A DNA stretch of 64,000 nucleotides from Firmicutes bacterium HGW-Firmicutes-2. Its GTDB lineage: Bacteria; Bacillota; Clostridia; Lachnospirales; Vallitaleaceae. The DNA lies in the NCBI GenBank assembly GCA_002841495.1, contig PGZV01000003.1, forward strand, positions 124,001-188,000, written 5' to 3'. Position 1 is the stretch's first letter. Every line of letters begins with the position of its first letter. This document shows positions 25,003-38,579 of the stretch, piece after piece. Below the pieces are notes generated by a model. That model was not told where the DNA came from and ran no database searches. It saw nothing but the letters and a program-made list of their open reading frames with translations. The position numbers and the translations under genes are program-made.

Positions 25003-26991
25003 CTAATACTTGAATTTTGCAATTCTCGTTTGCATATCCTCCGCTAGACGAGATAGAGCATCACTGGCATTAGATATCTCTGCCATAGATGCCGCTTGTT
25101 CTTCCATGGTAGCCGATGTTTGCTCAGAACCGGCTGCATTTTCTTGAGCTATAGCCGCTAGACTTTGCATGATTTCTGCTAACTCATTCTTCTTATCATC
25201 CATTGTGCTAACAGAATCTAGTGCTCTATTGATAATCGTTTTAACATCTTCGACTTGCTTGGATATGCCATTAAACTTACTTTCTGTTATTCTAACACTA
25301 TCTACTTGATCCTTAATAATGCCTTGAACCTCTTCCATGGATTTAACAGAACTTTTCGAGTTGTCCTGTAATTTCTTCAACATATCGTTAATATCTTTTA
25401 CTGAAGTTGTGGATTCCTCAGCCAACTTCCTAATCTCATCTGCAACTACAGCAAATCCTTTGCCGGCATCACCCGCTCTTGCTGCTTCTATAGCTGCATT
25501 AAGCGCTAGTAAATTGGTTTGTTCTGCAATACTTCTAATGAGTTCACTCGCCTGTCCAATCTTATCTGCACTTTCATTGGTCTCTCGTGTACTATGGTAG
25601 ATCTTGTCCATAGCATTATTACTATTTTGAGTTTTTTTACTAAGACCGATAATAATTTCTGTACCTTCATCCTTAAGCAATGTCAGCTGCCTCATTGCTA
25701 TATCCACCTGCTTCATATCCTCTAGATCTTCTTCTATGATATGGCTTATTTCATCGGTTCTCATAACACCATTTTCTGTATCTTTTGCCTGTTCTGTTGC
25801 ACTTTTAGCAATCTCTTCTATTGTTCTTGCCACTTCTTCTGCCGCATAAGCGGATTGTTGGCTGGTTGCTGTTAACTCCTCTGAAGACGCTGCAACCTGT
25901 TGAGATGTATCTGATATATGTTTTATAAAATCTCGCAAATTTTCCGTTACACTCTGGAAAGCTTTAGCAAGAGATCCTACTTCATCTTTCTTACTCATAT
26001 AGACCTGTGGCACATCCTCAGTAATATCCAAGTTAGCAATTTTCTTAGAATGCTCTATAATGCCTATAATAGGTTTTACTATAGAATAGCCTAGTACATA
26101 ACACAAAGCTATACTGATTATAAGTATGATTATTGTCGTAATCAAAATACTTTTTTGTAATGTTGGAATCGCTTTAAGTACCTCTCCCGAATTAGCTGTG
26201 ATTACAATAATCCAATCCGTTCCTTCAACAGCTATATATCCAATATACAAATCCTTACCACTATATGTGTATCTGCCCACATTATTTTCACCTGAAATAA
26301 TTTTCTCAAACTGAACGGCCAATGAATCTAGACTAGGATCTTCTTCGAGTGCACTTATTGGATTAAACTGATCTAATACCATTTGTCGATCAATATGGGC
26401 CACGACAGTACCTTGATTGTTAATCATATAAGCATATCCGTTTTCTCCATATCCCAAATCATCTGTTATATCACTAAGGGCGTTTCCATCACGTCTGCCA
26501 ACTAATACCCCAACAACTTCTCCATTGTTTTTTATGGGTGTGGCAAACATAAGTACGGCAGAGTTTGTCACTCTACTGATAATAACATCAGAGACATTGG
26601 ATTCTCCCTCAAATGCTTTAATCACGTAGGATCTGTCACCAAGTTCCGCGGTTGTTCCATCATGGTAATTGGTCACCCCATCCGGACTAACGACCCCCAA
26701 AGCTAAGAACCCCGAATCTGTCATTTGTTTTTCCATAACGCTTTTTTGCTGCTCATAATCCATACTTTCAATTTGATCAATCTTTGCAATGGCTTCTAAT
26801 GACTGAATGCCTGTTTCAATTCGGCTCTCCGTAAGCTTTGCGCCTTCTTCTGCCAATAGCACCAAGGATGCCTCCGCATTTTCCGTAACTGTCTTACTGA
26901 TAATAACTAATGATATGATTCCAAAACTGGCTGATATCAATAAGATTAATACTGAAAAATACACCACTAATTTACTTTTAATACTCTTCAT
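25003..26991 (-). CDS. Methyl-accepting chemotaxis protein with extracellular Cache-type sensor
   Basis: 662 aa. Helix 1 at about 8-30, an extracellular double-Cache-like sensor from about 35 to 275 ([15 protein letters not shown] and [17 protein letters not shown] are typical), helix 2 at about 280-302, a HAMP domain to about 360, and a cytoplasmic signalling domain whose hairpin tip is [19 protein letters not shown]. The strand order and the length match a class with sensor and tip in one chain. A GAAAGG site precedes the ATG. A c-di-GMP-I riboswitch with a terminator hairpin lies upstream, so receptor amount should follow c-di-GMP. No che genes are nearby and the ligand is unknown. Confidence 0.93.
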
Positions 26992-27020
26992 AACACTTTC
27001 CTTTCGTAATACATAATAAA

Positions 27021-27047
27021 ACCACCAGTCGACTACAGACCGGTGGT
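27021..27047 (-). terminator. Expression-platform terminator of the c-di-GMP riboswitch
   Basis: ACCACC-x-GTC pairs with GAC-x-GGTGGT (27021-27030, 27038-27047) around a 7-base loop. On the minus strand it is followed by TTTTATT and lies between aptamer and start codon, as expected for transcriptional control. Confidence 0.75.
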
Positions 27048-27079
27048 AAAGTTAAGATACAAATATACAATATCTTTTA

Positions 27080-27160
27080 TCCATACGGTAACCTGGCAAT
27101 CATAGTAACCCTTAGACCCATAGCTTTGCGACACTGCCTTTCGACAGCTGTGCCTTTTAC
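27080..27160 (-). promoter_or_regulatory. Cyclic di-GMP-I (GEMM) riboswitch aptamer
   Basis: Reading the minus strand: GGCACAG, a stem capped by a GAAA tetraloop (CTGTCGAAAGGCAG), then GTCGCAAAGC, GGGTCTAAGGG and finally GCCAGGTTACCG. These are the GEMM-I landmarks in order: the tetraloop, the CGCAAAGC core, the CTAA tetraloop receptor and the GGTTACCG closing strand. It precedes the chemoreceptor gene, a known GEMM-I target class. Confidence 0.9.
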
Positions 27161-27290
27161 ATTATGTGATTATAAAATCAAACAATTATTACTTGATAAT
27201 TATCGTATGTCACTTTTCTTTTAAAACATTATTATACTACAATTCCTATTTAAAGTACAGTTATTTCGGTGTTTACGTATATTAAAGCTC

Positions 27291-28223
27291 TTATAAGTAT
27301 TTTTCTAGAAACGCTTTTATTTCTTGATGCATGTCCTTCAATTCCGTTACCATTCCATGTCCTCCATGATCAAAAGTTACAAGTTTAGCTTTTCTAATAT
27401 TTTCTTTATAAAAAATAGCATGTTCATAATCTACTAAACTGTCATCCTTAGCATGCAAAATGATTGTGGGGACAGTTATTTTACTCAGTTCTTCTCCTGC
27501 TAACGGTTTGATTGCTGCTTCATGAAGATTACCCGGAAGTCTTGGACTCATGGGATGCATATACGCCAACATATCATTGACAATTTCTTTATCTTCTGAA
27601 CTAAGTGATTCAATAGTATCTTCTGAAATGCCTATGAACGTTTGAAATTGAGTACGAAATATTTTCAGAACCAACCAGTAGGCAAAGTCTGATTTTTGAA
27701 TGCTGTTCACTATTTTTGTACTTGTCGGAACATCGTCACCCATATATTTGGCTACTGCTGATACCAAAATCAGCGCATGACTCCTATCCGGATAGTCATG
27801 CGCAAATTGTACAGCCGAAGGGCCTCCTGCTGAGACTCCAAAGACAACCACTTTATCAATATTTAAGTAATCAAGTAATTGAGTATACATCATGGCTTGT
27901 TTTTCAACCGTGGAATCTTCAATCATCGGAGATCCAAGATAACCAAATCTGGATACAGATATGAATTCGTATCCTTCTTTTAGAATGTTATTACCCATTA
28001 ACAAGCCTTGATCATAGCCACCACCTGCACCATGTATCAGCAAAACCGGTGTTCCTTCACCCTCAACGCTATACTCAATTTCACCATAATCCGTCATAAA
28101 CTTCTCACTACCTTCTGACACTCTTTGATAGGCTGCATGCATGTCCTTATCATATTGAATATATACAACAATAAACAATATCAATACTACAACAATTACA
28201 GCATATATTAATATTTTCTTCAT
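27291..28223 (-). CDS. Membrane-anchored alpha/beta-hydrolase
   Basis: 310 aa. One N-terminal anchor helix (about 5-25), then an alpha/beta-hydrolase fold: oxyanion HGAGGG near 70, nucleophile elbow GVSAGG (Ser), acid in HAKDDSLVDYEH, and base in FDHGGHGM. The triad is complete. Lid residues and substrate are not identifiable; esterase or lactonase activity on a small molecule is the general expectation. Start 28223 follows AAGG at 8 bases; the ATG 21 bases earlier has none. It is 57 bases behind a TetR gene and probably in its autoregulated operon. Confidence 0.85.
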   Translation of the reverse strand: MKKILIYAVIVVVLILFIVVYIQYDKDMHAAYQRVSEGSEKFMTDYGEIEYSVEGEGTPVLLIHGAGGGYDQGLLMGNNILKEGYEFISVSRFGYLGSPMIEDSTVEKQAMMYTQLLDYLNIDKVVVFGVSAGGPSAVQFAHDYPDRSHALILVSAVAKYMGDDVPTSTKIVNSIQKSDFAYWLVLKIFRTQFQTFIGISEDTIESLSSEDKEIVNDMLAYMHPMSPRLPGNLHEAAIKPLAGEELSKITVPTIILHAKDDSLVDYEHAIFYKENIRKAKLVTFDHGGHGMVTELKDMHQEIKAFLEKYL

Positions 28224-28280
28224 GATCTCTACCTTTCTAAGCATTCTTGGTTACATTATAAAGCAATTGGTCTTCATTGG

Positions 28281-28847
28281 TTACTGCACTTTCATAATAT
28301 TATCCACTAAAGCATGAATAAAACTATTTCTTTGATCCTCTTCATGTAAATCTATACCACTATATAGATGGAATTCTGTTGGGTTTATACTCGCTACCTG
28401 TATAGGTAGTAAAACTTGTAATGCAATAATTCGTAGACCCATCTCATCTTTTTTATCTTCGAATATTTCTTTTAAGACCGGAATCAAAAAAAGTGGTGTC
28501 TGCATTTCTCCATTAAGAATGTTTTGAGTAATCGTAAACTTGATTAATTTCTCATGTTGTTCTCCAAAACTATACAACTCTTTTAACATTGTCTTAAATT
28601 TTTCTACAGGATTTGAGTTAAAAGCATTTCCCTGTATTAAAAAGCCAGTTGCCATTTTTGCCATATATTCTGCAACCGCAATACTTAGTAAGTTATTTTT
28701 AGAGTTAAAGTGATAGTTAATTAAACCGATCCCTACATTTGCACGTTCAGCTACTTGTCTGACTGTTATCTGCTCTACATCATCCACTTCTGAAAGCATA
28801 TTCACAACCACTTTTATTATGTTCGTTCTGGCATCTTTATCATTCAT
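28281..28847 (-). CDS. TetR-family transcriptional regulator
   Basis: 188 aa. Helix-turn-helix at about 25-50 (ITVRQVAERANVGIGLINYH) and a C-terminal helical ligand domain. AAGGAG lies about 9 bases before the ATG at 28847. A perfect palindrome TGAACATGTTCA overlaps the last base of its -10, indicating self-repression. The following hydrolase is the likely co-regulated output, perhaps acting on the same ligand (inference). Confidence 0.88.
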   Translation of the reverse strand: MNDKDARTNIIKVVVNMLSEVDDVEQITVRQVAERANVGIGLINYHFNSKNNLLSIAVAEYMAKMATGFLIQGNAFNSNPVEKFKTMLKELYSFGEQHEKLIKFTITQNILNGEMQTPLFLIPVLKEIFEDKKDEMGLRIIALQVLLPIQVASINPTEFHLYSGIDLHEEDQRNSFIHALVDNIMKVQ

Positions 28848-28875
28848 TTCAGCAACTCCTTTTCTGAACATCATT

Positions 28876-28915
28876 TGAACATGTTCAGTTTACTATACAG
28901 ATTTATTTTTGTCAA
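28876..28915 (-). promoter_or_regulatory. Promoter and palindromic operator of the TetR-hydrolase operon
   Basis: On the minus strand TTGACA (28915-28910) and TAAACT (28892-28887) are 17 bases apart. A perfect 12-bp palindrome TGAACATGTTCA (28876-28887) covers the transcription start region. Confidence 0.85.
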
Positions 28916-28944
28916 GGATAATCGTGTATATTTATAAGCATAAA

Positions 28945-29010
28945 AAAAACACCGTTTCGTTGTATTGGGTTTCTTTGTAGAAACATATAATATCACAATT
29001 TGGTGTTTTT
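28945..29010 (-). terminator. Terminator of the cupin gene
   Basis: AAAAACACC (28945-28953) pairs with GGTGTTTTT (29002-29010). An inner GTTTC/GAAAC hairpin lies between. On the minus strand a run of at least seven T follows. It starts 30 bases past the cupin stop. Confidence 0.7.
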
Positions 29011-29040
29011 CTTATTTAACTCTATCGCGTATTGGTTTAG

Positions 29041-29379
29041 TTATGGCTTAAAAACAACTACAAGCAACATTTTAAACTGTTCCTTAGCCAACAGAGCATG
29101 AGGAACATTGGATGGCATAATAATGGTTTCTCCCTTTTTCAAGAAATAAACCTCATCACCTATAGTAATCTCTGTCTCACCATCCATAACATACACCATG
29201 GCGTCTCCTGCTGAAGCATGAGAACTAATTTCCTCACCTTGGTCAAAAGCAAACAGTGTTATGCTTAGGTTTTTTCCTTGTGCTAACGTTCGACTTACAA
29301 CCTGTCCCGCTTGATAATTGACTAGGCTTGCCATTTCCATGGCTTGTGAAAATTCTATATTTTTTATGAATTGTTCCAT
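29041..29379 (-). CDS. Small cupin-domain protein
   Basis: 112-aa single-domain cupin: motif 1 region GEEISSHASAGDAMVYVMDG and motif 2 region GETIIMPSNVPHAL. Motif 1 has H-A-S where metal cupins have HxH, so metal binding is incomplete. Proteins of this length and form are common in clostridia with unknown substrates. Well-placed GGAGG before the ATG. Monocistronic, with a hairpin terminator. Confidence 0.82.
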   Translation of the reverse strand: MEQFIKNIEFSQAMEMASLVNYQAGQVVSRTLAQGKNLSITLFAFDQGEEISSHASAGDAMVYVMDGETEITIGDEVYFLKKGETIIMPSNVPHALLAKEQFKMLLVVVFKP

Positions 29380-29411
29380 ATTGGTCCTCCTTAGGAATTT
29401 GATTGGTTTAT

Positions 29412-29504
29412 AATTGGTTAAGGTGTCAAAACTATATAGTTGAACTTTTACCTACCATGGTGGGTTAATTTAGTGAAACTTAGTTTTTACCCTTTAATCA
29501 TAAT
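29412..29504. repeat. MITE-like short palindromic repeat, copy B (about 92 bp)
   Basis: Related to 13029-13115, with conserved outer segments and a divergent middle. The core GGTTAAGG...CCTTTAATC is flanked on both sides by ATAATT, which could be a target duplication, although copy A shows none. It lies between the cupin and TPM genes. Confidence 0.7.
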
Positions 29505-29554
29505 TGTTATTATAGACTTCATCCATAAAGATTACGGTACCCTAGGTTACTTAA

Positions 29555-30313
29555 TTACCATCCCCTAGAGCTACCACCTCCGCCACTTCGACCACCGCCG
29601 CCACCAAATCCGCCGCCACCGCCGCCTTTACCTGAATTTCTAGCAAGCATATACAACACAACTCTTGTCATGCGTCCACGATTGAATATTAAATCTAACA
29701 TCATAAGTATGATGCCGATTATGATTAGGATGACGTGGAAAATCGTTATCTTTCCGCTTTCTTCCTCTTCAGTCACAGGCTTATAGTAAACATTTTGGCT
29801 TGTGATAGTTGCTTCATCCAGGCCATACTCTATGAACACTTCTTCTGCAAGCTTTAAATACGTTCCTATAATACCTGCATCGTAATTACCTTCTTGAAAA
29901 TGTCCAATAAGGTAGTCATCTTGTATCCGTCCTGTTTTTGCATCATTTAAGGCACCCTCTAGACCATATCCCACTTCAATACGAGATTGACGATCATTTA
30001 GAGATACCAACAAGAGTAAACCATTGTTCTTCGTTGCATCTCCAATGCCCCACTCTCTAAAAAGATTCAGAGCATAAGTTTCAATATCTTGTCCTTCTAA
30101 ACTGTCTACCGTAACAACTACAATCTGTGCACCTGTCTCTTGTGCCAATGGTACCGACACCTGCATGATGGCTTCTTCTGTTTCAGCCGAAAGAATGCCC
30201 GCATAATCATTCACATAGAATTCTGAGGTATGGCTCGGATAGCTTTGACCATATAACTCCGACATAGAAAGCAGCATGGATAGAATGAACAATGCTGCTA
30301 TAGTTTTTTTCAA
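29555..30313 (-). CDS. TPM-domain protein (YgcG family) with glycine-rich tail
   Basis: 252 aa. Signal peptide (about 1-22), a TPM domain at about 30-165 (VNDYAGILSAETEEAI, then VVTVDSLEGQDIETYA, then NNGLLLLVSLNDRQSRIEVGYGLEG), one transmembrane helix at about 188-208 and a Gly/Ser-rich C-terminal tail of about 25 residues. Family members are membrane-anchored with the domain outside; reported roles range from phosphatase to photosystem repair. It follows lemA by 11 bases, the usual LemA-TPM pairing. Confidence 0.88.
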   Translation of the reverse strand: MKKTIAALFILSMLLSMSELYGQSYPSHTSEFYVNDYAGILSAETEEAIMQVSVPLAQETGAQIVVVTVDSLEGQDIETYALNLFREWGIGDATKNNGLLLLVSLNDRQSRIEVGYGLEGALNDAKTGRIQDDYLIGHFQEGNYDAGIIGTYLKLAEEVFIEYGLDEATITSQNVYYKPVTEEEESGKITIFHVILIIIGIILMMLDLIFNRGRMTRVVLYMLARNSGKGGGGGGFGGGGGRSGGGGSSRGW

Positions 30314-30324
30314 TCTAATCCCCC

Positions 30325-30903
30325 CTAATTATTAAAATCTACAGTAGGGACTTCACTTGCGCCTTCACTGGCTTCAAAATATTCTGCCGGTTCAAAACCA
30401 AACATTCCGGCAAAAAGGTTCATAGGAAATTGCTTAGCAACACTGTTAAAGTTTCTGGCCACTGAGTTGTAGTCTTGTCTGGCTACGGCAATTCTGTTTT
30501 CAGTTCCTGCCAGTTCATCGGCTAACTGTCTGAAATTCGCATCCGATTTTAGATCCGGATAGCTTTCCGATATTGCAAGTAATCTTGATAAAGCGCCTGA
30601 TAATTGTGCATCTGCTTCTGCTTGTTCGCCTACTGTACCGGCACCCATCATTCGTGCACGTGCATCTGCTATGTTATTGAAAATTTCTTGTTCTTGACTG
30701 GCGAAACCTTTAACGGTTTCAACCAAGTTTGGAATTAAATCATTCCGTCTTTGTAATTGATTATCAATTTGACTAAGAGACATATTAACTTCTTCGTCTA
30801 ATACGACTAAATTGTTATATCTCGATACGACTGTACCACCAATGCTAAAGATGATTAAGACGACTATTGCTATAATGATTAATACTATACTACCTTTTTT
30901 CAT
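30325..30903 (-). CDS. lemA: LemA-family protein
   Basis: 192 aa. One N-terminal membrane helix (about 6-24) followed by a long helical domain with the LemA signatures YNNLVVLDEEVNMSLSQIDNQLQRRNDLIPNL-type segment and NSVAKQFPMNLFAGMFGFEPAEYF near the C-terminus. Start 30903 follows AGAGGTG; an in-frame ATG 24 bases earlier lacks a site. It is the first gene of the LemA-TPM pair. Molecular function is not established for the family. Confidence 0.9.
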   Translation of the reverse strand: MKKGSIVLIIIAIVVLIIFSIGGTVVSRYNNLVVLDEEVNMSLSQIDNQLQRRNDLIPNLVETVKGFASQEQEIFNNIADARARMMGAGTVGEQAEADAQLSGALSRLLAISESYPDLKSDANFRQLADELAGTENRIAVARQDYNSVARNFNSVAKQFPMNLFAGMFGFEPAEYFEASEGASEVPTVDFNN

Positions 30904-31194
30904 ACTAACACCTCTTCTAATTGTCATTTACATAGTTGATATGATGATCATTATAATTAAACTTATTGCTACTTAATATCTTTTATATTGTACCACTAAC
31001 TATTTCCACTTACCATCACATGACCATCGTTTTAATCATCTTTTAATGGTTTTTACTTAATTTTGACAATTGCCCAAGGTTAAATAAAAGAACATTAACC
31101 AAGATATAACCTTGTATCTCTGAAGTGTAACCGTTTTTCTATGTTATTTATGAATTTATACACAATAATTATAGAATTTCTTTTGTCATCATGA
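30904..31194. other. Intergenic region, no gene found
   Basis: This stretch separates the divergent lemA and cytochrome genes. It contains an imperfect inverted repeat, CAAGGTTA at 31075-31082 with TAACCTTG at 31107-31114, and AT-rich promoter-like DNA. I see no coding sequence. Confidence 0.5.
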
Positions 31195-31237
31195 TATAAT
31201 GTGAATATTACTATTAATGATAATGATTATGATTATC
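31195..31237 (+). promoter_or_regulatory. Promoter -10 and near-consensus Fur box
   Basis: TATAAT at 31195-31200 has only a weak -35. At 31219-31237 GATAATGATTATGATTATC matches the classical 19-bp Fur box at 17 of 19 positions. The box lies just downstream of the expected start of transcription, so iron-bound Fur would block the following two genes. Confidence 0.75.
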
Positions 31238-31284
31238 CGAATTGGCATTGTTCGGGTAATACTAACCTTGAAAGGACTGATTAT

Positions 31285-31656
31285 ATGTTGGGTTGGTTGA
31301 ACGCTTTTTTATTATTTTTACTCCTCTCTTTTCCGATTGCCCTTGAAGTGAACAAACGTTGGTTAAAAGGAAAGAACAAAAACTATAATCAGTTCTTGAA
31401 AAAAGGTCGAAAGATGCATCCCTACGTCGGTGGTTTATTGATTCTGACCGGACTTACTCATGGCTATCTAAAACTAGGTCGTTTTGATTTTCATACCGGC
31501 TCCTTATTATTGATGGTTTTGACGTTTAATGGCATCTTAGGGTTAATTTATAAGCGGACTAAAAAAAGATCTTTTGCTAAGGTCCATCGATATATGGGTA
31601 TACTCATCGTTTTACTTTTCTTACTCCATTATCTACGTCCATGGTATTTTATTTAA
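31285..31656 (+). CDS. Four-helix di-heme b-type cytochrome-like membrane protein
   Basis: 123 aa, four predicted helices (about 3-22, 46-64, 71-90, 102-120). Histidines H45/H59 in helix 2 and H101/H115 in helix 4 are each 14 residues apart, the spacing of bis-His di-heme sites in cytochrome b and ferric-reductase/NOX helices; H70 is extra. There is no flavin or NAD domain, so electrons must come from elsewhere. Start 31285 has GAAAGG at suitable spacing. It is preceded by a Fur box and followed 49 bases later by a heme-b5-like lipoprotein gene. A role in trans-membrane electron transfer, perhaps ferric reduction, is inference. Confidence 0.7.
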   Translation: MLGWLNAFLLFLLLSFPIALEVNKRWLKGKNKNYNQFLKKGRKMHPYVGGLLILTGLTHGYLKLGRFDFHTGSLLLMVLTFNGILGLIYKRTKKRSFAKVHRYMGILIVLLFLLHYLRPWYFI

Positions 31657-31705
31657 TCTATGGTTAAAGTATCAAACTGTTTGTTTAAAAGAAAGTGGTG
31701 ATCAT

Positions 31706-32110
31706 ATGAAGTGGCTCCTAATAACACTTATGGTATTAGCATTATCCCTTACCGGATGTCAATCTGATGAGGCTACCAATGTACCCGTAGTAGAAGAAGA
31801 AACACCTATTGTAGATGACCAACCTGTCGACACCGATGAACCTGATATGGATACAGATGAACCTGTTGCGGATATGGAAAGCATCGAACTAACCTTAGAG
31901 GCTTTAGCTACTTATAACGGTCAAGATGGTATGCCTGCTTATGTCGCACATAATAACATCATCTATGATGTATCTGATATACCTCAATGGGCCAATGGTA
32001 CCCATAACGGACAATATGCCGGTACGGACCTAACCGGCAAAATAGAAAAAGCACCTCATGGTGTTAAAAACCTTGAACTGGCAACAAAAGTAGGCGTAAT
32101 CGTTGAGTAA
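31706..32110 (+). CDS. Lipoprotein with cytochrome b5-like heme-binding domain
   Basis: 134 aa. Signal peptide with lipobox LTGC (Cys at about 18), an Asp/Pro/Val-rich tether to about 62, then a cytochrome b5-like domain: LEALATYNGQDGMPAYVAHN, YDVSDIPQWANGTHNGQYAG, TDLTGKIEKAPHG. The His in GTHNGQ and the His in APHG fall where b5 proteins place their axial ligands. It would sit on the outer face of the membrane beside the di-heme helix protein. Likely the same transcript and Fur control. A terminator follows. Confidence 0.85.
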   Translation: MKWLLITLMVLALSLTGCQSDEATNVPVVEEETPIVDDQPVDTDEPDMDTDEPVADMESIELTLEALATYNGQDGMPAYVAHNNIIYDVSDIPQWANGTHNGQYAGTDLTGKIEKAPHGVKNLELATKVGVIVE

Positions 32111-32159
32111 GATAATATATGCCGGATGATCAAATAATTCCCAATCATACCTATTAATA

Positions 32160-32188
32160 AAAGGCAAACGCATCTAGCGTTTGCCTTT
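32160..32188 (+). terminator. Terminator of the cytochrome pair
   Basis: AAAGGCAAACGC (32160-32171) pairs perfectly with GCGTTTGCCTTT (32177-32188), followed by TATTTTTAT. It also lies past the end of the converging wall-hydrolase gene. Confidence 0.9.
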
Positions 32189-32222
32189 TATTTTTATAAT
32201 TCGTACACATGCCTGTTATAAA

Positions 32223-34319
32223 CTAAATACCAACCCTGTCCAATTCTTTCAAGTTGTATTGTCGAATTAACTTCATCAGCTTAATCGGATACTGAGGATC
32301 GGTTGCATACCCTGCACGCTTAATGGCCCATGCACCTAAGCTACTTTGATACATCACATCTCTAAACGGTGCATATCGATCTGCATTAAGTAACAAGCTC
32401 TTATGGTCATTCCAACTCTCTTGAACATTATTATATGCTCTAAAGTTCGCATCCACTCTATAGGTTACACCGTTATAGACCTCCCACGTATTGGAAGTAA
32501 CGGATCCATTGGTAGCCGAACCTTTTATACCAAAGAGGTTATATGAAAACTTACCGCTGTATTTATCTTGTGGTACGCTTTGACCCCAACCGGTTTCTAA
32601 TATGGCTTGCGCTGTTTGTAACGCCGCAGACATACCTGTACTGTTCCAAGATGTCTTTGCCATACCGGATGAAAATGCTAGAAATTTGTCTTTTTCAATT
32701 ATGGCTTTTGGACCAAACGTTTTGTCTAGATATATTCTAAAATCTATGGTCTCCGATGTTATTTTGGCACCCTTATAGTAACCTTCAGCCTTAAGTGATA
32801 CTTGTCCAACGTCGGATGCTGTTGGCTTAAAAGTCCATTCGCTAGTAACCGGAATATCATATCCGACAATCTTAGTTGACCCTGTACTTTTATTGGTCAA
32901 TATATAATTGACTTTGTCCATTGTCACGTTGCTGCTTACATTCAGCTTTGTTTCTCCTGTTAAAACTTGATTTGGTCCTACTCCTGAAAGCTGTAGTCTT
33001 GGACTTCCATCCACTTTAACTTGAATATAATCACTTTCACGTGTTACACCCCCTGCATCAATGACTCTGACTTTTAGAGATTTATTACCTGAAAAACTTT
33101 CACCCGGAAACCATCTGTAACCACCGTAAGGTAGTGTTGCCAGTACCGTTTCTACACCTGTTTTTTCATCTTTGATCAAATAGGTTGTTTCCCTTACATC
33201 AAAATTTCTTGATGCTAGCAAGGTAACCGGCTTGTTCACCGTCATACCTGCTGTGACACCGGTCAAGCTAAGGTTTTCATCCACTTGAACACTAATGGTA
33301 TAGGGTGCACTATGATAGATATTACCTACTGCATCATAAGCCATCACTTTTACGCTATAATGACCTTCCTGAGATTTGGTAGGTGTCCATGTGTAGGAAC
33401 CGAAGGGATCTTGTTCGATGACTGTTATGACTTTACCATTGCCGAGATTGGTAAGCTCATAGGTAATATGTTCTGCGATAAAATTTACATTCGGCCTAAG
33501 TACAACTGTTTTCTGAATGGTTTCATTGTTAACAAGACCTTCTAATACTATATTCGGCGTAACTGAGATGACCACCGGCACCGCATCTGCAGCTATAAGT
33601 TTATTGTACTTATCGTATAGAGCAACCACCATGACCTTGTTTCCATTATCTTCAAGGGATGGCACATAAGTTAAACTGCTTGTATCACCTAAACTTCTAC
33701 CGACTACGAAGCCGGTTGCCGTTTGTCGGTCCACAAGAAGTAATCTGACGTCTCCAAGTGTTGCCTTATAACGTTCGCCAAAGGTGAAAGTAACCGTTGT
33801 TTTGCCTTGAATCGTTTGACCAGGTGAAAGAGATGTGATTAATACTTCATGAAAAGGTGCTTTAACAGATGTTTTATTCGAGTCTACAAGGACTTGTCTT
33901 GTCTCATTGACCCACTCAATACCAATGCCGAAGGCATTACTGATTAATCTTAAGGGTACATAAGTACGATCACCAACGATTAGGGGTGCCACATCACTCA
34001 CCTGATATGACGCGCCTTGATTATAGCCTACTAGAGTGCTACCAATCTTAAGAAAAACACTTTGATTACCTTTAATAACCTCAACTGTTCTGTTAGTGGG
34101 GTCCCAATTGACAGTAGCGCCAATTTCCTCTGTAACAAACCGTATTGGTACCATGGTTCTTCCATTTTGGATAATCGGTGTCGATAATTCTGTTATATCT
34201 TTTCCATCTACAATCAGACGCATATCTTGGGCATGGCCCTCAATGGTCAGCATGCTTGATGTAATGACATAGACCGCAGATAGTATAAGACTTAGTGTTA
34301 TATTTCTAATTAATTTCAT
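32223..34319 (-). CDS. Secreted cell-wall hydrolase (copper-amine-oxidase-N, Ig-like, glucosaminidase)
   Basis: 698 aa. Signal peptide (about 1-30), a copper-amine-oxidase N-terminal-like domain at 33-150 (VDGKDITELSTPIIQNGRTM, with the second half VPLRLISNAFG), four or so Ig-like modules (about 155-530), and a C-terminal FlgJ/LytG-type N-acetylglucosaminidase domain (about 545-690), in which QAILETGWGQS provides the catalytic Glu and NLFGIKG the substrate loop. It cuts glycan strands of peptidoglycan during growth or separation. Well-placed GGAGG before the ATG, TATAAT at 34353-34358 on the minus strand. Monocistronic. Confidence 0.9.
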   Translation of the reverse strand: MKLIRNITLSLILSAVYVITSSMLTIEGHAQDMRLIVDGKDITELSTPIIQNGRTMVPIRFVTEEIGATVNWDPTNRTVEVIKGNQSVFLKIGSTLVGYNQGASYQVSDVAPLIVGDRTYVPLRLISNAFGIGIEWVNETRQVLVDSNKTSVKAPFHEVLITSLSPGQTIQGKTTVTFTFGERYKATLGDVRLLLVDRQTATGFVVGRSLGDTSSLTYVPSLEDNGNKVMVVALYDKYNKLIAADAVPVVISVTPNIVLEGLVNNETIQKTVVLRPNVNFIAEHITYELTNLGNGKVITVIEQDPFGSYTWTPTKSQEGHYSVKVMAYDAVGNIYHSAPYTISVQVDENLSLTGVTAGMTVNKPVTLLASRNFDVRETTYLIKDEKTGVETVLATLPYGGYRWFPGESFSGNKSLKVRVIDAGGVTRESDYIQVKVDGSPRLQLSGVGPNQVLTGETKLNVSSNVTMDKVNYILTNKSTGSTKIVGYDIPVTSEWTFKPTASDVGQVSLKAEGYYKGAKITSETIDFRIYLDKTFGPKAIIEKDKFLAFSSGMAKTSWNSTGMSAALQTAQAILETGWGQSVPQDKYSGKFSYNLFGIKGSATNGSVTSNTWEVYNGVTYRVDANFRAYNNVQESWNDHKSLLLNADRYAPFRDVMYQSSLGAWAIKRAGYATDPQYPIKLMKLIRQYNLKELDRVGI

Positions 34320-34520
34320 ACGAAAACCTCCTTCGACCCATCGGTCATACCTATTATATCAGATATGTCGACCTTCAATCTAGATATGATTGATTTTGTA
34401 ACCCTATTGTCATAAGTCGTATATTCAAATATTTTATAATTTATTAATACATTATTTATATGAACTTTCAACCTGTTCTGTTATACTCAAAGCATCATAA
34501 ATAACGATAGGAGTACATGT

Positions 34521-35207
34521 ATGGAATTTCATAAAATATTACAGATGAACATAGGTAATAAACACCTTGACATCCTTAAAAATACGAACTTTATCGAGAA
34601 CATTCAAGAATTTGGGGTTCTTCAGCAACTGTATAGAGCCGCTATTAAAGAGGTCCGAACCAAATTAGAAATACTAGATGAAGAATTCCAAGTCAAATAC
34701 GATCACAGCCCGATTCATCATATTGAATACAGACTCAAATCACCTCAAAGCATCATGGACAAACTTATAAAAAAAGATCTTGAAATTAACACACAAAATA
34801 TTTGGACCAACCTGTCGGATGTAGCCGGTATTCGCGTCATCTGTAATTATATCAACGATATTGATCGGATTGCCGCTTTTTTAATTCAGCAAGATGATGT
34901 TACCTTAATTCGTCGCAATGATTATATTGAAAGCCCGAAATCAAATGGGTATAGAAGTCTCCATCTTATAGTAGCTGTGCCCATATTCTTATCCAACTCG
35001 ACAGAGCAAGTAAAGGTTGAGGTTCAGATTCGTACCATCGCCATGGATTTCTGGGCCAGTCTAGAACACAAGCTAAAATACAAAACCCAGGATGAAGTCT
35101 CAGAAGATCTGCGTGGTCGGTTATTGGACTGTGCCAATTCTATTACCTTATTGGACTTAGAAATGCAATCTATTTATGAAGGTATTAAGTCGGATCAAGA
35201 CCAATGA
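34521..35207 (+). CDS. Small alarmone synthetase (RelA/SpoT domain, RelQ/YjbM type)
   Basis: 228-aa single-domain GTP pyrophosphokinase that makes (p)ppGpp. Typical stretches: HHIEYRLKSPQSIMDKL (G-loop Arg/Lys region), DVAGIRVICNYINDI with the catalytic Asp, RNDYIESPKSNGYRSLHLIV (guanine-binding Tyr) and VQIRTIAMDFWASLEHKLKYK (metal-binding Glu/Gln region). No HD, TGS or ACT domain, so it is synthetase-only and not ribosome-bound. It stands alone with a hairpin terminator. Expressed probably under envelope or other stress; no regulatory site is evident. Confidence 0.93.
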   Translation: MEFHKILQMNIGNKHLDILKNTNFIENIQEFGVLQQLYRAAIKEVRTKLEILDEEFQVKYDHSPIHHIEYRLKSPQSIMDKLIKKDLEINTQNIWTNLSDVAGIRVICNYINDIDRIAAFLIQQDDVTLIRRNDYIESPKSNGYRSLHLIVAVPIFLSNSTEQVKVEVQIRTIAMDFWASLEHKLKYKTQDEVSEDLRGRLLDCANSITLLDLEMQSIYEGIKSDQDQ

Positions 35208-35246
35208 TATTTAACACGTAATAATATATGAAACCAACTAAAATCC

Positions 35247-35291
35247 AATAAGAGCATCCAATTGTTTTTTCTAGCATTGGATGCTCTTATT
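35247..35291 (+). terminator. Hairpin after the alarmone synthetase gene
   Basis: Perfect 16-bp arms (35247-35262, 35276-35291) around a loop containing TGTTTTTT. The T-run after the stem is short, so efficiency is uncertain. Confidence 0.65.
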
Positions 35292-35444
35292 AGCCTGTAT
35301 TGCTCAATTCATGTTATTAATACATAATCAACCTCATACCACCTGTTTCGACTGTTTTGTTTTGTTGACATATGTAGATAATCAAGTATAATTCAAGTTA
35401 CAAAAGATTCGACACCAAAATAAATATATTAACAGGAGCCTATT

Positions 35445-36773
35445 ATGGTAAAAAAAGTCACTTTAATGAGCCTAGCTATTCCTATATTCTTTGAGGTCAT
35501 ACTCTTTATGACCCTTGGTGTTGTTGACACTTTAATGCTAAGCCGTATATCCGACCAGGCTGCCGGTGCAGTCGGCATCGCCAATCAACTCATCAATTTC
35601 ACCAATATCATATTTACAATCATTAGCGTAGGTGCAGCCATACTAATCGCTCAGTTCATCGGTGCAAAAAAATGGGTGGATTGCCATATGACCATCATTG
35701 TCGCCTATGTGGTACTAACAATCATTGGTCTGGTCTGCTCCATCGGTCTTTTTTTCTTTGGCCCTGATCTATTGATACTCATTGGTATTACACCTGGGCT
35801 TATGGGTTATGCCAGTGATTATATACGTATCGTCGGAATTTTTATGTTTCTTCAGGCTTTCTTGAACATATCCACCGTTACCATGCGTAGTTATGGTTAT
35901 AGTAAACAGACACTGTATATTACCGCTACGATGAATATCATTAATATCGTCGGGGACTATGCCTTACTTTTTGGTGCTTTTGGTTTACCTGCCCTTGGTG
36001 CAGCCGGTGTTGCTATTGCAACTTCCATTAGCCGACTGATTGCCGTCATTTTATCGACTATTTTTGTGTTCAAACACATTGTACCACTATCTGCCATAAC
36101 CTATATTAAAAACTTCCCTAAACATATATTAAGACTCTTGTTAAAACTAGGTTTTCCCGCTGCACTTGAAAACCTCTCTTATAATGTGAGCCAGATTGTC
36201 ATCACCGGTATTGTGTTGGTCTATCTTGGTGAAGAAATGTCCATCGTACGAACTTATGTTGGCAGTATCGTCACTTTTGCTTTAATCGTTACCATCGCCA
36301 TTAGTCAAGCCAATCAAATCATCATCGGTCGTCTTATTGGCGAAGGTCTGATAGATGAGGCCTATCATATGTGTATCAAGAACTTTAGGATTGCTTTTTA
36401 TGTTATGTGTGGCATCGGTGTTATTTTTTATTTCTTCGGTGGCCATCTGATGCGTATTTTTTCCGACAATCCCACCATCATAGAGTGGGGCATGATTATT
36501 CTTGCCCTTGATGCCTTTTTAGAACTTGGTCGTATCTTCAACATCGTTTTTATCAGCGGTCTTCGTGGTGCCGGTGATGTTATTTTCTCTGTTGCCATTG
36601 GCCTCGTTTTTATGTGGGGTATAGCCGCTGCCGGTGCTTATGTTTTTGTCGTCATCTTCGACTGGGGTCTTCCCGGCGTATGGCTTGCCTTGCTACTGGA
36701 TGAATGGGTACGAGGCATCTTAAACTTTCTTAGATGGCACAACAAAAAATGGGTCACCAAAGCTTTGGTTTAG
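35445..36773 (+). CDS. MATE-family efflux transporter
   Basis: 442 aa, 12 helices in two homologous halves as in MATE multidrug/Na+ (or H+) antiporters. N-half: GVVDTLMLSRISDQAAGAVGIANQ (helix 1 Asp). C-half: a similar GFPAALENLSYNVSQI start. Length is normal for DinF/NorM types. AGGAG lies 7 bases before the ATG. Converges with the flavoprotein gene. Drug or cationic substrate is not determinable. Confidence 0.9.
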   Translation: MVKKVTLMSLAIPIFFEVILFMTLGVVDTLMLSRISDQAAGAVGIANQLINFTNIIFTIISVGAAILIAQFIGAKKWVDCHMTIIVAYVVLTIIGLVCSIGLFFFGPDLLILIGITPGLMGYASDYIRIVGIFMFLQAFLNISTVTMRSYGYSKQTLYITATMNIINIVGDYALLFGAFGLPALGAAGVAIATSISRLIAVILSTIFVFKHIVPLSAITYIKNFPKHILRLLLKLGFPAALENLSYNVSQIVITGIVLVYLGEEMSIVRTYVGSIVTFALIVTIAISQANQIIIGRLIGEGLIDEAYHMCIKNFRIAFYVMCGIGVIFYFFGGHLMRIFSDNPTIIEWGMIILALDAFLELGRIFNIVFISGLRGAGDVIFSVAIGLVFMWGIAAAGAYVFVVIFDWGLPGVWLALLLDEWVRGILNFLRWHNKKWVTKALV

Positions 36774-36781
36774 TGCCTTCC

Positions 36782-37399
36782 TTATCGAATAAAATTCGTA
36801 GCAATTCTTTGCTCTCGCTCCGGCACTTCTATCCCTGCCGCTTTTCCAGCCTCAAGACACTTTAGTAACCATGCCATGTTTTTCCCAAGAGTCCTCATAA
36901 TCTGCATCCCCTCTAGGTCTTGTCTCACTTGATCCGGCGTATTGCCATGCACCATATTCCAGTATTGTGACGGAACCATAGGCATATTGCTAATGGCAAA
37001 ATATTTATTCAACTGATCCAGCGCTGCCGTGGAACCACCTCTTCTACAACTGACAATAGCCGCTCCCGGTTTATGGGCATGAATCTTGCCTGCATAGAAA
37101 AATCGGTCAAGAAAAGATGTGATAGCACCGGAGGCACCAGCATAATGAACCGGAGATCCAAAAACATAGGCATCTGCGGATTCTGATTTCTCCAAAATTC
37201 GATTGACGATATCATCATCAAAAATACATCGGTTATTGGCACATTTGCCACAACCTGTACATCCACGAATAGGTGACTGACCCAAATGGACCATCTCCAC
37301 TTCAATATCAGCGCCAACCAATTCTTTTTCCACCTCTTTTAACGCGGTATAGGTACAACCCTCCTTATGAGGACTTCCATTAATCATTAATACTTTCAT
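36782..37399 (-). CDS. Flavodoxin-like NAD(P)H-dependent FMN oxidoreductase
   Basis: 205 aa, NADPH-dependent FMN reductase/iron-sulfur flavoprotein fold. The FMN phosphate loop INGSPHKEGCTYTAL is at the N-terminus; a cysteine cluster GCTGCGKCANNRCIF follows at about 46-60, and FGSPVHYAGASGAITSFLDR supplies the isoalloxazine side. The cysteine cluster could be a [4Fe-4S] site. AGGAGGTAG precedes the ATG. It ends 9 bases from the convergent MATE gene. Its electron-transfer partner is unknown. Confidence 0.88.
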   Translation of the reverse strand: MKVLMINGSPHKEGCTYTALKEVEKELVGADIEVEMVHLGQSPIRGCTGCGKCANNRCIFDDDIVNRILEKSESADAYVFGSPVHYAGASGAITSFLDRFFYAGKIHAHKPGAAIVSCRRGGSTAALDQLNKYFAISNMPMVPSQYWNMVHGNTPDQVRQDLEGMQIMRTLGKNMAWLLKCLEAGKAAGIEVPEREQRIATNFIR

Positions 37400-37600
37400 C
37401 GCTACCTCCTGATGACCATCTTTTACTTAATTATTGGTTTACCAATCTGATTATATCATATATTAAAACCTTAGTATTCTCTTAAATCATTCATGCTCGT
37501 ATTAATCAACTCTTTGAATAAGAACTATTTAAAATTTTCACATCGTCTATAATAGTATCAAGCTCAACATAATGTGTAAATCTATAAAGTAATATCAAAA

Positions 37601-37746
37601 TAAGCCAACATCGACCATGAAGTTCCTGGAGACAGTGTGTATGAACGTAGTAAAGACAGCAGGAGCTGTCCGCCGACATTTGGTGCAAGGACGCACCAAC
37701 GGTCGGTCGAAGTCATACATACTGCGGAAGGGTTTTCATGGGACCC
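37601..37746 (-). repeat. 146-bp dispersed palindromic element, copy 2
   Basis: Inverted relative to 12153-12298 and the same length. End segments are almost identical; the middle differs but keeps TTGGTGC-N6-GCACCAA. The stem beneath has CCGAC/GTCGG where copy 1 has TCGAC/GTCGA, a compensatory change. An additional GACAGC-TCCT-GCTGTC hairpin replaces part of the copy 1 arm. With the following terminator it accounts for most of the gene-free stretch 37400-37820. Confidence 0.75.
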
Positions 37747-37771
37747 AATTATAATTCTCTTTGAAAAAAAA

Positions 37772-37799
37772 GCCTCTAAGCTTTTAACCACTTAGAGGC
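37772..37799 (-). terminator. Terminator of the amino-acid ABC operon
   Basis: GCCTCTAAG (37772-37780) pairs with CTTAGAGGC (37791-37799). On the minus strand it is followed by at least seven T. Confidence 0.88.
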
Positions 37800-37820
37800 A
37801 ATTAATATATTTTTACCAAC

Positions 37821-38579
37821 CTATTGATACCCTTTAATAAAAGCCTTCGTCCTATCACTCTTAGGATTACCAAACACTTCCTCTGGTGTACCCTCTTCAG
37901 CGATCACACCTTCATCCATGAAAATAACATGGTTGGCCACTTCTTTTGCAAAATTCATCTCATGGGTTACGATTACCATGGTCATATGCTCTTTTGCCAG
38001 TGATTTGATGACCTTCAACACCTCACTGGTCAGCTCAGGATCTAAGGCTGAAGTTGGCTCATCAAAAAAGAGTACTTTGGGATTCAGGGCTAAAGCCCTT
38101 GCTATAGACACCCTTTGTTGTTGTCCACCAGAAAGCTGAAAAGGATACGCATTTTCTTTTTCAGACAAACCCATTTTTGTAAGCAACCTACGGCCTATAT
38201 CATAGGCTTCTTCCTTACTCTTATTCTGAGTATGAATCAAAGCATCCGTCACATTCTTCATCACTGAAAAATGTGGAAACAGATTAAAGTCTTGAAAAAC
38301 AAGACCAAAATAGCTACGAATCTTTTTAAGCTCCGCCCCTGTAACCTTATGGGGCATGCCATCTTTATCTGCCTTAAAAGCCGATTCTCCAAGATATAGG
38401 ATGTCTCCTGCATCAATGGACTCTAACATAGTCGCACACCTAAGAAGAGTTGACTTCCCTGATCCTGAGGGACCGATAATGGCTATCACTTCCCCTTGCT
38501 CGACTTTTAGAGATATGTTCTTAATGACTTGAAGGTCACCAAAGCTTTTCTTAAGCTGTCTTATTTCAAGTAAACTCAT
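37821..38579 (-). CDS. Polar amino-acid ABC transporter, ATP-binding protein
   Basis: 252-aa ATPase of the GlnQ/HisP/TcyN class. Walker [11 protein letters not shown]-loop [10 protein letters not shown], signature [15 protein letters not shown], Walker [16 protein letters not shown] and switch His in VTHEMNFA. It powers import of a polar amino acid. Third gene of the binding-protein/permease/ATPase operon, 11 bases after the permease. Confidence 0.95.

Follow-up and report, generated by a model that had tools for sequence, protein, structure and literature searches.

In our judgement, it is an open question by what means fermenting anaerobes that lack multiheme cytochromes bring electrons to their surface. 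A short locus in the stretch of DNA analysed here (the window; 64,000 nucleotides, G000:C12:124001-188000, from a genome of 3.52 Mb) raises this question in a small form, as a Fur-type box stands before the genes of a four-helix membrane protein with paired histidines and a lipoprotein with a cytochrome b5-like domain. The original prediction took the two proteins for a minimal transmembrane di-heme path that ends on an outer-face heme lipoprotein and possibly reduces Fe(III) for uptake. Do the two genes form a conserved unit, would they carry electrons outward, and is iron their purpose?

The two-gene unit and its proteins

The window genome, that of a deep-subsurface anaerobe, is Petrocella or very close to it. 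The named loci most similar to the window pair are those of MAG HGW-Firmicutes-3 (L035) and Petrocella sp. FN5 (L036), in which the pair is intact and the membrane protein is 96% and 89% identical to that of the window, respectively. The unit lies between divergent lemA/TPM_phosphatase genes and a 698-aa gene on the opposite strand, and no transporter was found among its immediate neighbours in the window. Its probable -10 element, TATAAT at 31195-31200 on the + strand, was read directly; four of five aligned loci have TATAAT and the fifth (L037) has TATGAT. A promoter scan of 31000-32300 listed no + strand promoter, the -10 being good and the -35 poor. The Fur-type box follows at 31218-31238 as two overlapping 7-1-7 motifs, with one mismatch at 31218-31232 and two at 31224-31238. 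The ribosome-binding site (GAAAGGA, 31270-31276, + strand) falls within a block that is identical across the five aligned loci, and the -10 region and the box core are kept in the upstream DNA of these loci as well. The cytochrome gene (31285-31656) and the lipoprotein gene (31706-32110) are both on the + strand, 49 bases apart. A candidate intrinsic terminator with a 16-pair stem and a T tail (32156-32192, + strand) closes the unit; it is statistically weak, as one such hairpin was found against a shuffle mean of 0.9. Re-reading confirmed the features from which the prediction had started, namely a box matching at 17 of 19 positions after the TATAAT, a 123-aa four-helix protein with H45/H59 and H101/H115, and a b5 lipoprotein 49 bases on, and it added a histidine that had gone unlisted, H70.

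The histidines of the membrane protein are thus at positions 45, 59, 70, 101, and 115. We aligned 20 members of its family (alignment A3), the window protein included, of which the others are 25-93% identical to it. Only six residues are invariant, four His and two Gly (H45, H59, G60, G72, H101, and H115), and the two His of each pair are 14 residues apart. H70, where helix 3 ends on the outer side, is near-invariant and is replaced by Asn in one of the 20 members. In all 20 members, lysine and arginine are concentrated in loop 1 (5-10) and loop 3 (3-6) and are scarce in loop 2 (0-2) and at the C terminus (0-1). By the positive-inside rule the cytochrome is therefore predicted to be N-out and C-out. 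One His per helix at each face is the ligand arrangement of a di-heme four-helix bundle, and because of the conserved histidines and this topology we infer two b hemes stacked across the membrane, with H45/H101 as the putative inner and H59/H115 as the putative outer ligands.

No Pfam or NCBIfam family scored over its cut-off for the window membrane protein. The best-scoring named family was DUF4079 (PF13301; 25 bits against a cut-off of 31.4, E 2.5e-5). Ferric_reduct (PF01794) gave 16.5 bits against a cut-off of 28, the best of the 20 members reaching E 3.9e-4, and DUF4405 (PF14358) gave 12.3 bits (E 0.26), below its cut-off of 26.7. Relatives scored higher with DUF4405: L027 reached 24.2 bits and the best of the 20 A3 members E 3e-5. 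At E <=0.01, six of the 20 members matched Ferric_reduct, five DUF4079, and five DUF4405. With the membrane family as query, a sequence search of the PDB gave no match at E 10. The AlphaFold model of the protein is only fair (pLDDT 70), and Foldseek found nothing for it at E 0.001; the top row, at E 1.7, was an unrelated receptor, followed by heme A synthase and NOX5 at E 2.2-2.7. VIA structural overlay matched NOX, cytochrome b, STEAP1, heme A synthase, and a designed di-heme bundle. Since TRPV channels scored as high (Z up to 9.6), the overlay was dropped as evidence.

The second protein has 134 residues: a lipobox (LTGC, Cys18), an acidic linker, and a C-terminal domain at 31886-32107 (+ strand) that is predicted to be a MAPR-type cytochrome b5 domain with H100 and H118 (lipoprotein numbering) as putative heme ligands. 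Both histidines are invariant in the 10 members of the b5 alignment A5. The window domain scored 22.5 bits with PF00173, just below the cut-off of 23.7, and the domains of its relatives exceeded that cut-off (37.2, 40, and 31.8 bits). Searched against the PDB, the family profile matched the archaeal cytochrome b5 proteins 6nzx (E 4e-23) and 6vz6 (E 2e-20) best, then 1j03 and 1t0g, and then classical b5. 1j03 and 1t0g are MAPR-like, and the label "MAPR-type" rests on this and on their rank above classical b5. The model of the lipoprotein is weak (pLDDT 65); nonetheless, Foldseek also ranked 6nzx and 6vz6 first. No relative of the lipoprotein was found in the viral contigs searched.

Pairing of the cytochrome with exported heme and flavin domains

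The cytochrome and b5 genes are adjacent in seven lineages and fused in an eighth, as the proposed co-conservation of the pair had called for. Adjacent pairs were found in Petrocella (the window, L009, L035, and L036), in f45 and f48 (two each), in f56 and f72, in f163 (three), and in a Pseudothermotoga MAG (L038). One more pair, 80% identical, is on a 4.5 kb contig of an Erysipelotrichaceae MAG (L037) that may be mis-binned and was excluded from the seven lineages. Loci from the same genome were counted once (L008/L035, L010/L036, and L011/L039). In f57, a single 240-aa ORF fuses the cytochrome to a b5 domain placed after helix 4, which is outside, as the N-out/C-out topology demands. The cytochrome gene precedes the b5 gene in Petrocella, L037, and G084, and follows it in the remaining pairs. 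In the Pseudothermotoga MAG, a protein that looks exported and carries two or more b5 repeats is followed by the cytochrome and then by NfnA/NfnB-like genes (NCBIfam PRK06222 and gltA); its second repeat keeps the first ligand His and differs in the segment at the second. The pairing has exceptions. L123, from the same genus as two of the pairs, has a cytochrome with no b5 neighbour, and L102 has an exported b5 domain with no cytochrome.

The association was also seen at the level of whole genomes. Among 391 genomes of the class, 24 matched the cytochrome profile (A3) and 37 the b5 profile (A5). Both matched in 12, against about 2.3 expected if they were independent (Fisher p 1e-7, uncorrected for phylogeny). 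The two genes were adjacent or fused in seven of these 12 genomes and non-adjacent in five (G088, G116, G141, G209, and G290). We read 30 of the 41 b5 places, judging export by the lipobox pattern and by eye; the 11 others include three in cytochrome-carrying genomes (G209 and second places in G340 and G351). The places read comprised 11 lipoproteins, one fusion to the cytochrome, one protein with an N-terminal anchor, and 17 proteins without an export signal. The cytochrome was present in the genome for 12 of the 13 exported or fused b5 domains, compared with none of the 17 others (Fisher p 1.5e-7). For the lipoproteins it was found by profile in 10 of 11 cases. The eleventh, G084, was recognised by eye: a divergent relative of the cytochrome, missed by the profile at 1e-5, lies 33 bases from the b5 gene, and the association without G084 has a p of 1.4e-6. 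The genome of the one N-terminally anchored protein has no cytochrome match. Exported b5 domains are thus nearly confined to genomes with the cytochrome. In the phylum scan, 15 of 398 genomes had the cytochrome, four of them with an adjoining b5 gene (G000, G595, G619, and G689).

Other relatives of the cytochrome are joined to a flavin domain. Pfam identified fusions to FMN_bind in L026 and L027, and by eye we recognised the same fusion in L028-L031, L034, L127, L128, and L132. In L159 (6405-12162), the operon rnfCDGEAB continues with a seventh gene that encodes a cytochrome-FMN_bind fusion; all six rnf genes were over the NCBIfam cut-off, and the fusion was called from the Pfam match of L026. 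In L161 (6900-12486), an nqr operon is extended by a 152-aa gene, a stand-alone cytochrome (by profile), and a pirin-like gene (by eye). Here nqrF was over the cut-off, C, D, and E were best matches under it, and B was called by eye; the same genome encodes a b5 lipoprotein elsewhere (L096). The place of these relatives in rnf and nqr operons leads us to infer that complexes of the Rnf/Nqr type supply the cytochrome with electrons. An Rnf complex is present in P. atlantisensis (PMC6647913). The Petrocella pair stands alone and is not beside rnf.

In genus g77 (L013-L015), stand-alone cytochromes lie beside V-type-ATPase-like and GNAT-like genes (by eye), and neither a b5 nor an FMN partner was seen at these three loci.

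Taken together, the conserved ligands, the positive-inside topology in 20 of 20 members, the co-conservation and fusion, and the retention of the box by all four Petrocella genomes uphold the proposed minimal path. The pair is probably a conduit, a di-heme membrane cytochrome that passes electrons outward to a b5 lipoprotein. The four-helix protein would hold two b hemes, an inner one on H45/H101 and an outer one on H59/H115. Electrons would enter it from the cytoplasm or inside the membrane; their likeliest source is a reductase of the Rnf/Nqr type, itself supplied by ferredoxin or NADH. They would then pass to the heme of the b5 lipoprotein anchored at the outer face. In other lineages the conduit would work without a visible Fur site, and an FMN_bind domain may replace the b5 domain. 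The donor and the acceptor of the conduit are both putative.

The Fur-type box and the role of iron

Whether the conduit serves iron depends largely on the reading of the box. The sequence GATAATGATTATGATTATC at 31219-31237, 3' of the TATAAT, was compared by eye with the Fur 19-mer GATAATGATAATCATTATC and matches it at 17 of 19 positions on the + strand and 18 of 19 on the - strand. With the 7-1-7 form, TGATAATNATTATCA, 31218-31232 is the sole site with <=1 mismatch in the 64 kb window. The 3.52 Mb genome has nine such places, the window box included, and 121 places with <=2 mismatches compared with 41 for a reversed control. Two of the other eight sites with <=1 mismatch are about 470 and 590 bases 5' of feoB, with an unnamed 71-aa ORF between, and one is immediately 5' of sufC. 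One more is 42 bases 5' of a ccdA-like gene, which is followed by a TlpA-like lipoprotein gene (TlpA by eye); this pair would be a second reductant-exporting unit, possibly under the same control. Four of the nine places (C3, C12:203792, C15:31035, and C24) are inside a gene or before genes that could not, by eye, be tied to iron or redox. The genome encodes four FUR-family proteins.

No other site of the genome matches the 7-1-7 form perfectly, as the ccdA-like site does (L041, own genome C7:94743-94757). At 2-295 of the same locus, in a frame cut by the locus end, 33 consecutive aspartates follow a stretch that by eye resembles PepSY. At C14:94846 (L003), a Fur-like 19-mer with two mismatches to the searched pattern lies about 420 bases 5' of a gene judged nifH-like by eye. 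In the window, a second, weaker Fur/PerR-like site, TGATGATCATTATAA, with two mismatches, is at 30942-30956, just 5' of the divergent lemA/TPM_phosphatase genes. Scans of the L035, L036, and L009 stretches found no site with <=2 mismatches besides the main box.

The main box has one mismatch in the window, L035, L036, and L009, that is, in four of four Petrocella genomes, and two mismatches in L037. It was found in none of the 11 distant pairs or fusions examined (L016, L017, L018, L033, L024, L038, L120, L121, L122, L087, and L093), where the best site had 3-6 mismatches and was matched by shuffles in 14 to 100% of trials. The box was therefore rejected as a general feature of the pair, and iron appears to be a local use in Petrocella. 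Around some of these distant loci we read a wider stretch of genes, and by eye recognised none for iron next to the pair. Fe(III) reduction in the service of uptake was not borne out as a claim about the pair in general. P. atlantisensis is described as not accepting electrons onto Fe(III) citrate (PMC6647913), so that respiration on this compound is unlikely, whereas assimilation is compatible with that result.

The main weakness of any di-heme reading in the window organism is that ferrochelatase and AhbD were not found. No ferrochelatase was detected in the four genomes of the genus, compared with eight of 14 control genomes in which the same family was detected, and no AhbD scored over the cut-off in the four (best 116 bits against 500). 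Radical-SAM matches below the cut-off were found in all four, and likewise in all 14 controls. Heme would therefore have to be imported or made by another route. P. atlantisensis requires yeast extract (PMC6647913).

In Petrocella, low iron would free the unit from Fur repression, as the box suggests, and the conduit would most likely reduce Fe(III) at the surface, or keep iron reduced, for FeoB. To derepress a heme protein when iron is scarce is reasonable if the protein helps to obtain iron. This iron role is tentative, somewhat short of probable. The conduit and the iron role together are slightly favoured as the best overall explanation, a rating that overlaps with that of the broader outlet considered next, since the conduit is common to both. 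In a fuller form, which is doubtful, the pair would be an assimilatory ferric reductase under Fur control, with which a strict anaerobe makes do with just two small heme proteins, the b5 lipoprotein and a di-heme membrane cytochrome of 123 aa, both run on scavenged heme in a cell for which no ferrochelatase was recognised. The reductase would then belong, as a single branch, to a modular family that has gone unrecognised and whose minimal cytochrome carries electrons from Rnf/Nqr to interchangeable surface ends, b5 heme or covalent FMN.

The same conduit might instead be a general redox outlet of fermenters, which disposes of reductant or delivers it to surface acceptors such as thiols, quinones, or radicals; iron control in Petrocella would then be a local add-on and Fe(III) would not be implied as the substrate. 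The lack of the box at the distant loci is what this reading expects, and the neighbours of some cytochromes also agree with it: pyruvate formate-lyase and a Crp/Fnr-type regulator in L150, and molybdate-transport-like genes (by eye) in L152. The Fur-boxed ccdA/TlpA-like unit likewise would export reductant. However, Petrocella keeps the box, and the similar sites before feoB and sufC favour an iron purpose there. We regard this outlet as a possible explanation, of lower probability than the conduit with its iron role.

Two other readings would dispense with Fe(III) in different ways. If the b5 lipoprotein captured external heme and the membrane protein received it or passed it on, the pair would be a Fur-controlled scavenging system in an organism unable to finish heme, for which the failure to find ferrochelatase and AhbD, the box, and the yeast-extract requirement could all be cited. 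The FMN_bind fusions and the rnf and nqr operons, however, fit electron transfer rather than heme transfer, the four strictly conserved histidines fit two fixed bis-His hemes, and the window pair has no transporter beside it; heme acquisition is thus unlikely. If the box were a PerR site, the pair might quench oxygen or lipid radicals in oxidative-stress defence. By eye, the box is two mismatches from the PerR consensus, and a superoxide-dismutase-like gene in the same genome (NCBIfam E 1e-80, below the cut-off) carries a related 19-mer. The cytochrome b561/lipocalin pair LcoA/BcnA has an analogous architecture (PMC9113575). Yet one half-site fits Fur better than PerR, L036 has TGATAATGATTATCT, and sites similar to the box precede feoB and sufC, so we consider this defence role the least probable of all. 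The preferred reading, the conduit with a local iron role in Petrocella, can be tested directly in its iron control, as only two short genes are involved. If the conduit is real, it would be a very small route for electrons to the surface that ties Rnf/Nqr pumps to heme or flavin carriers, and a class of exported bacterial b5 domains would gain a partner.

Relation to known systems

The ferric reductase domain and NOX enzymes hold two stacked hemes by His pairs in two helices. NOX5 (5o0t) overlaid the window membrane protein with Z 8.5 over 114 residues, a score that does not discriminate since TRPV overlays equally well. In contrast to ferric reductases and NOX, the window protein is below the family cut-off and has no FAD/NAD(P)H domain.

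The original prediction knew of no named system of this form. For the b5 lipoprotein this still stands, as no description of such a protein partnered with a membrane cytochrome was found in the literature searched; for the transmembrane half it does not, because that half resembles DUF4405, MsrQ, and FezC. According to PMC11334425, DUF4405 and FezC are membrane cytochromes with heme b that are associated with flavinylated proteins and ferrosomes, and the shared features are a membrane cytochrome b, conserved central histidines, and extracytosolic redox partners. In the eight DUF4405 proteins that we aligned, the histidines are also 14 apart in helices 2 and 4 (by eye), as in the window family. 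DUF4405 is reported to have six helices (PMC11334425), whereas the window protein has four in 123 aa, and the DUF4405-type partner is an ApbE-flavinylated protein rather than a b5 lipoprotein. Membership in DUF4405 was rejected, as hhalign of A3 against the eight proteins gave a probability of 2% over 20 columns. The window cytochrome is thus predicted to be akin in design to DUF4405/MsrQ/FezC and is not a detectable member. No fezA or fezB was recognised in a by-eye reading of the ORFs at 26000-38000.

The lipoprotein has the same domain as the MAPR-type b5 proteins 6nzx (Hadesarchaea) and 6vz6 (Methanococcoides), which have His at both putative ligand positions. The matched chains of these two are single 78-residue domains, while the window domain is predicted to be lipid-anchored and exported, and is paired, or in a relative fused, with a membrane cytochrome. 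A protein mentioned in PMC13343851 differs from this arrangement, as its b5 domain is cytoplasmic and its C7 domain periplasmic. A parallel in layout is found in flavin-based extracellular electron transfer and flavinylated Rnf/Nqr (PMC8238504), where a membrane redox protein feeds an exported, often lipidated carrier. The membrane types given there are NapH-, MsrQ-, PepSY-, DsbD-, and Rnf/Nqr-like, and the term "cytochrome b5" has no occurrence in the main text of that paper. In those systems the carrier is FMN, whereas here it would be a b5 heme; relatives of the cytochrome are themselves fused to FMN_bind.
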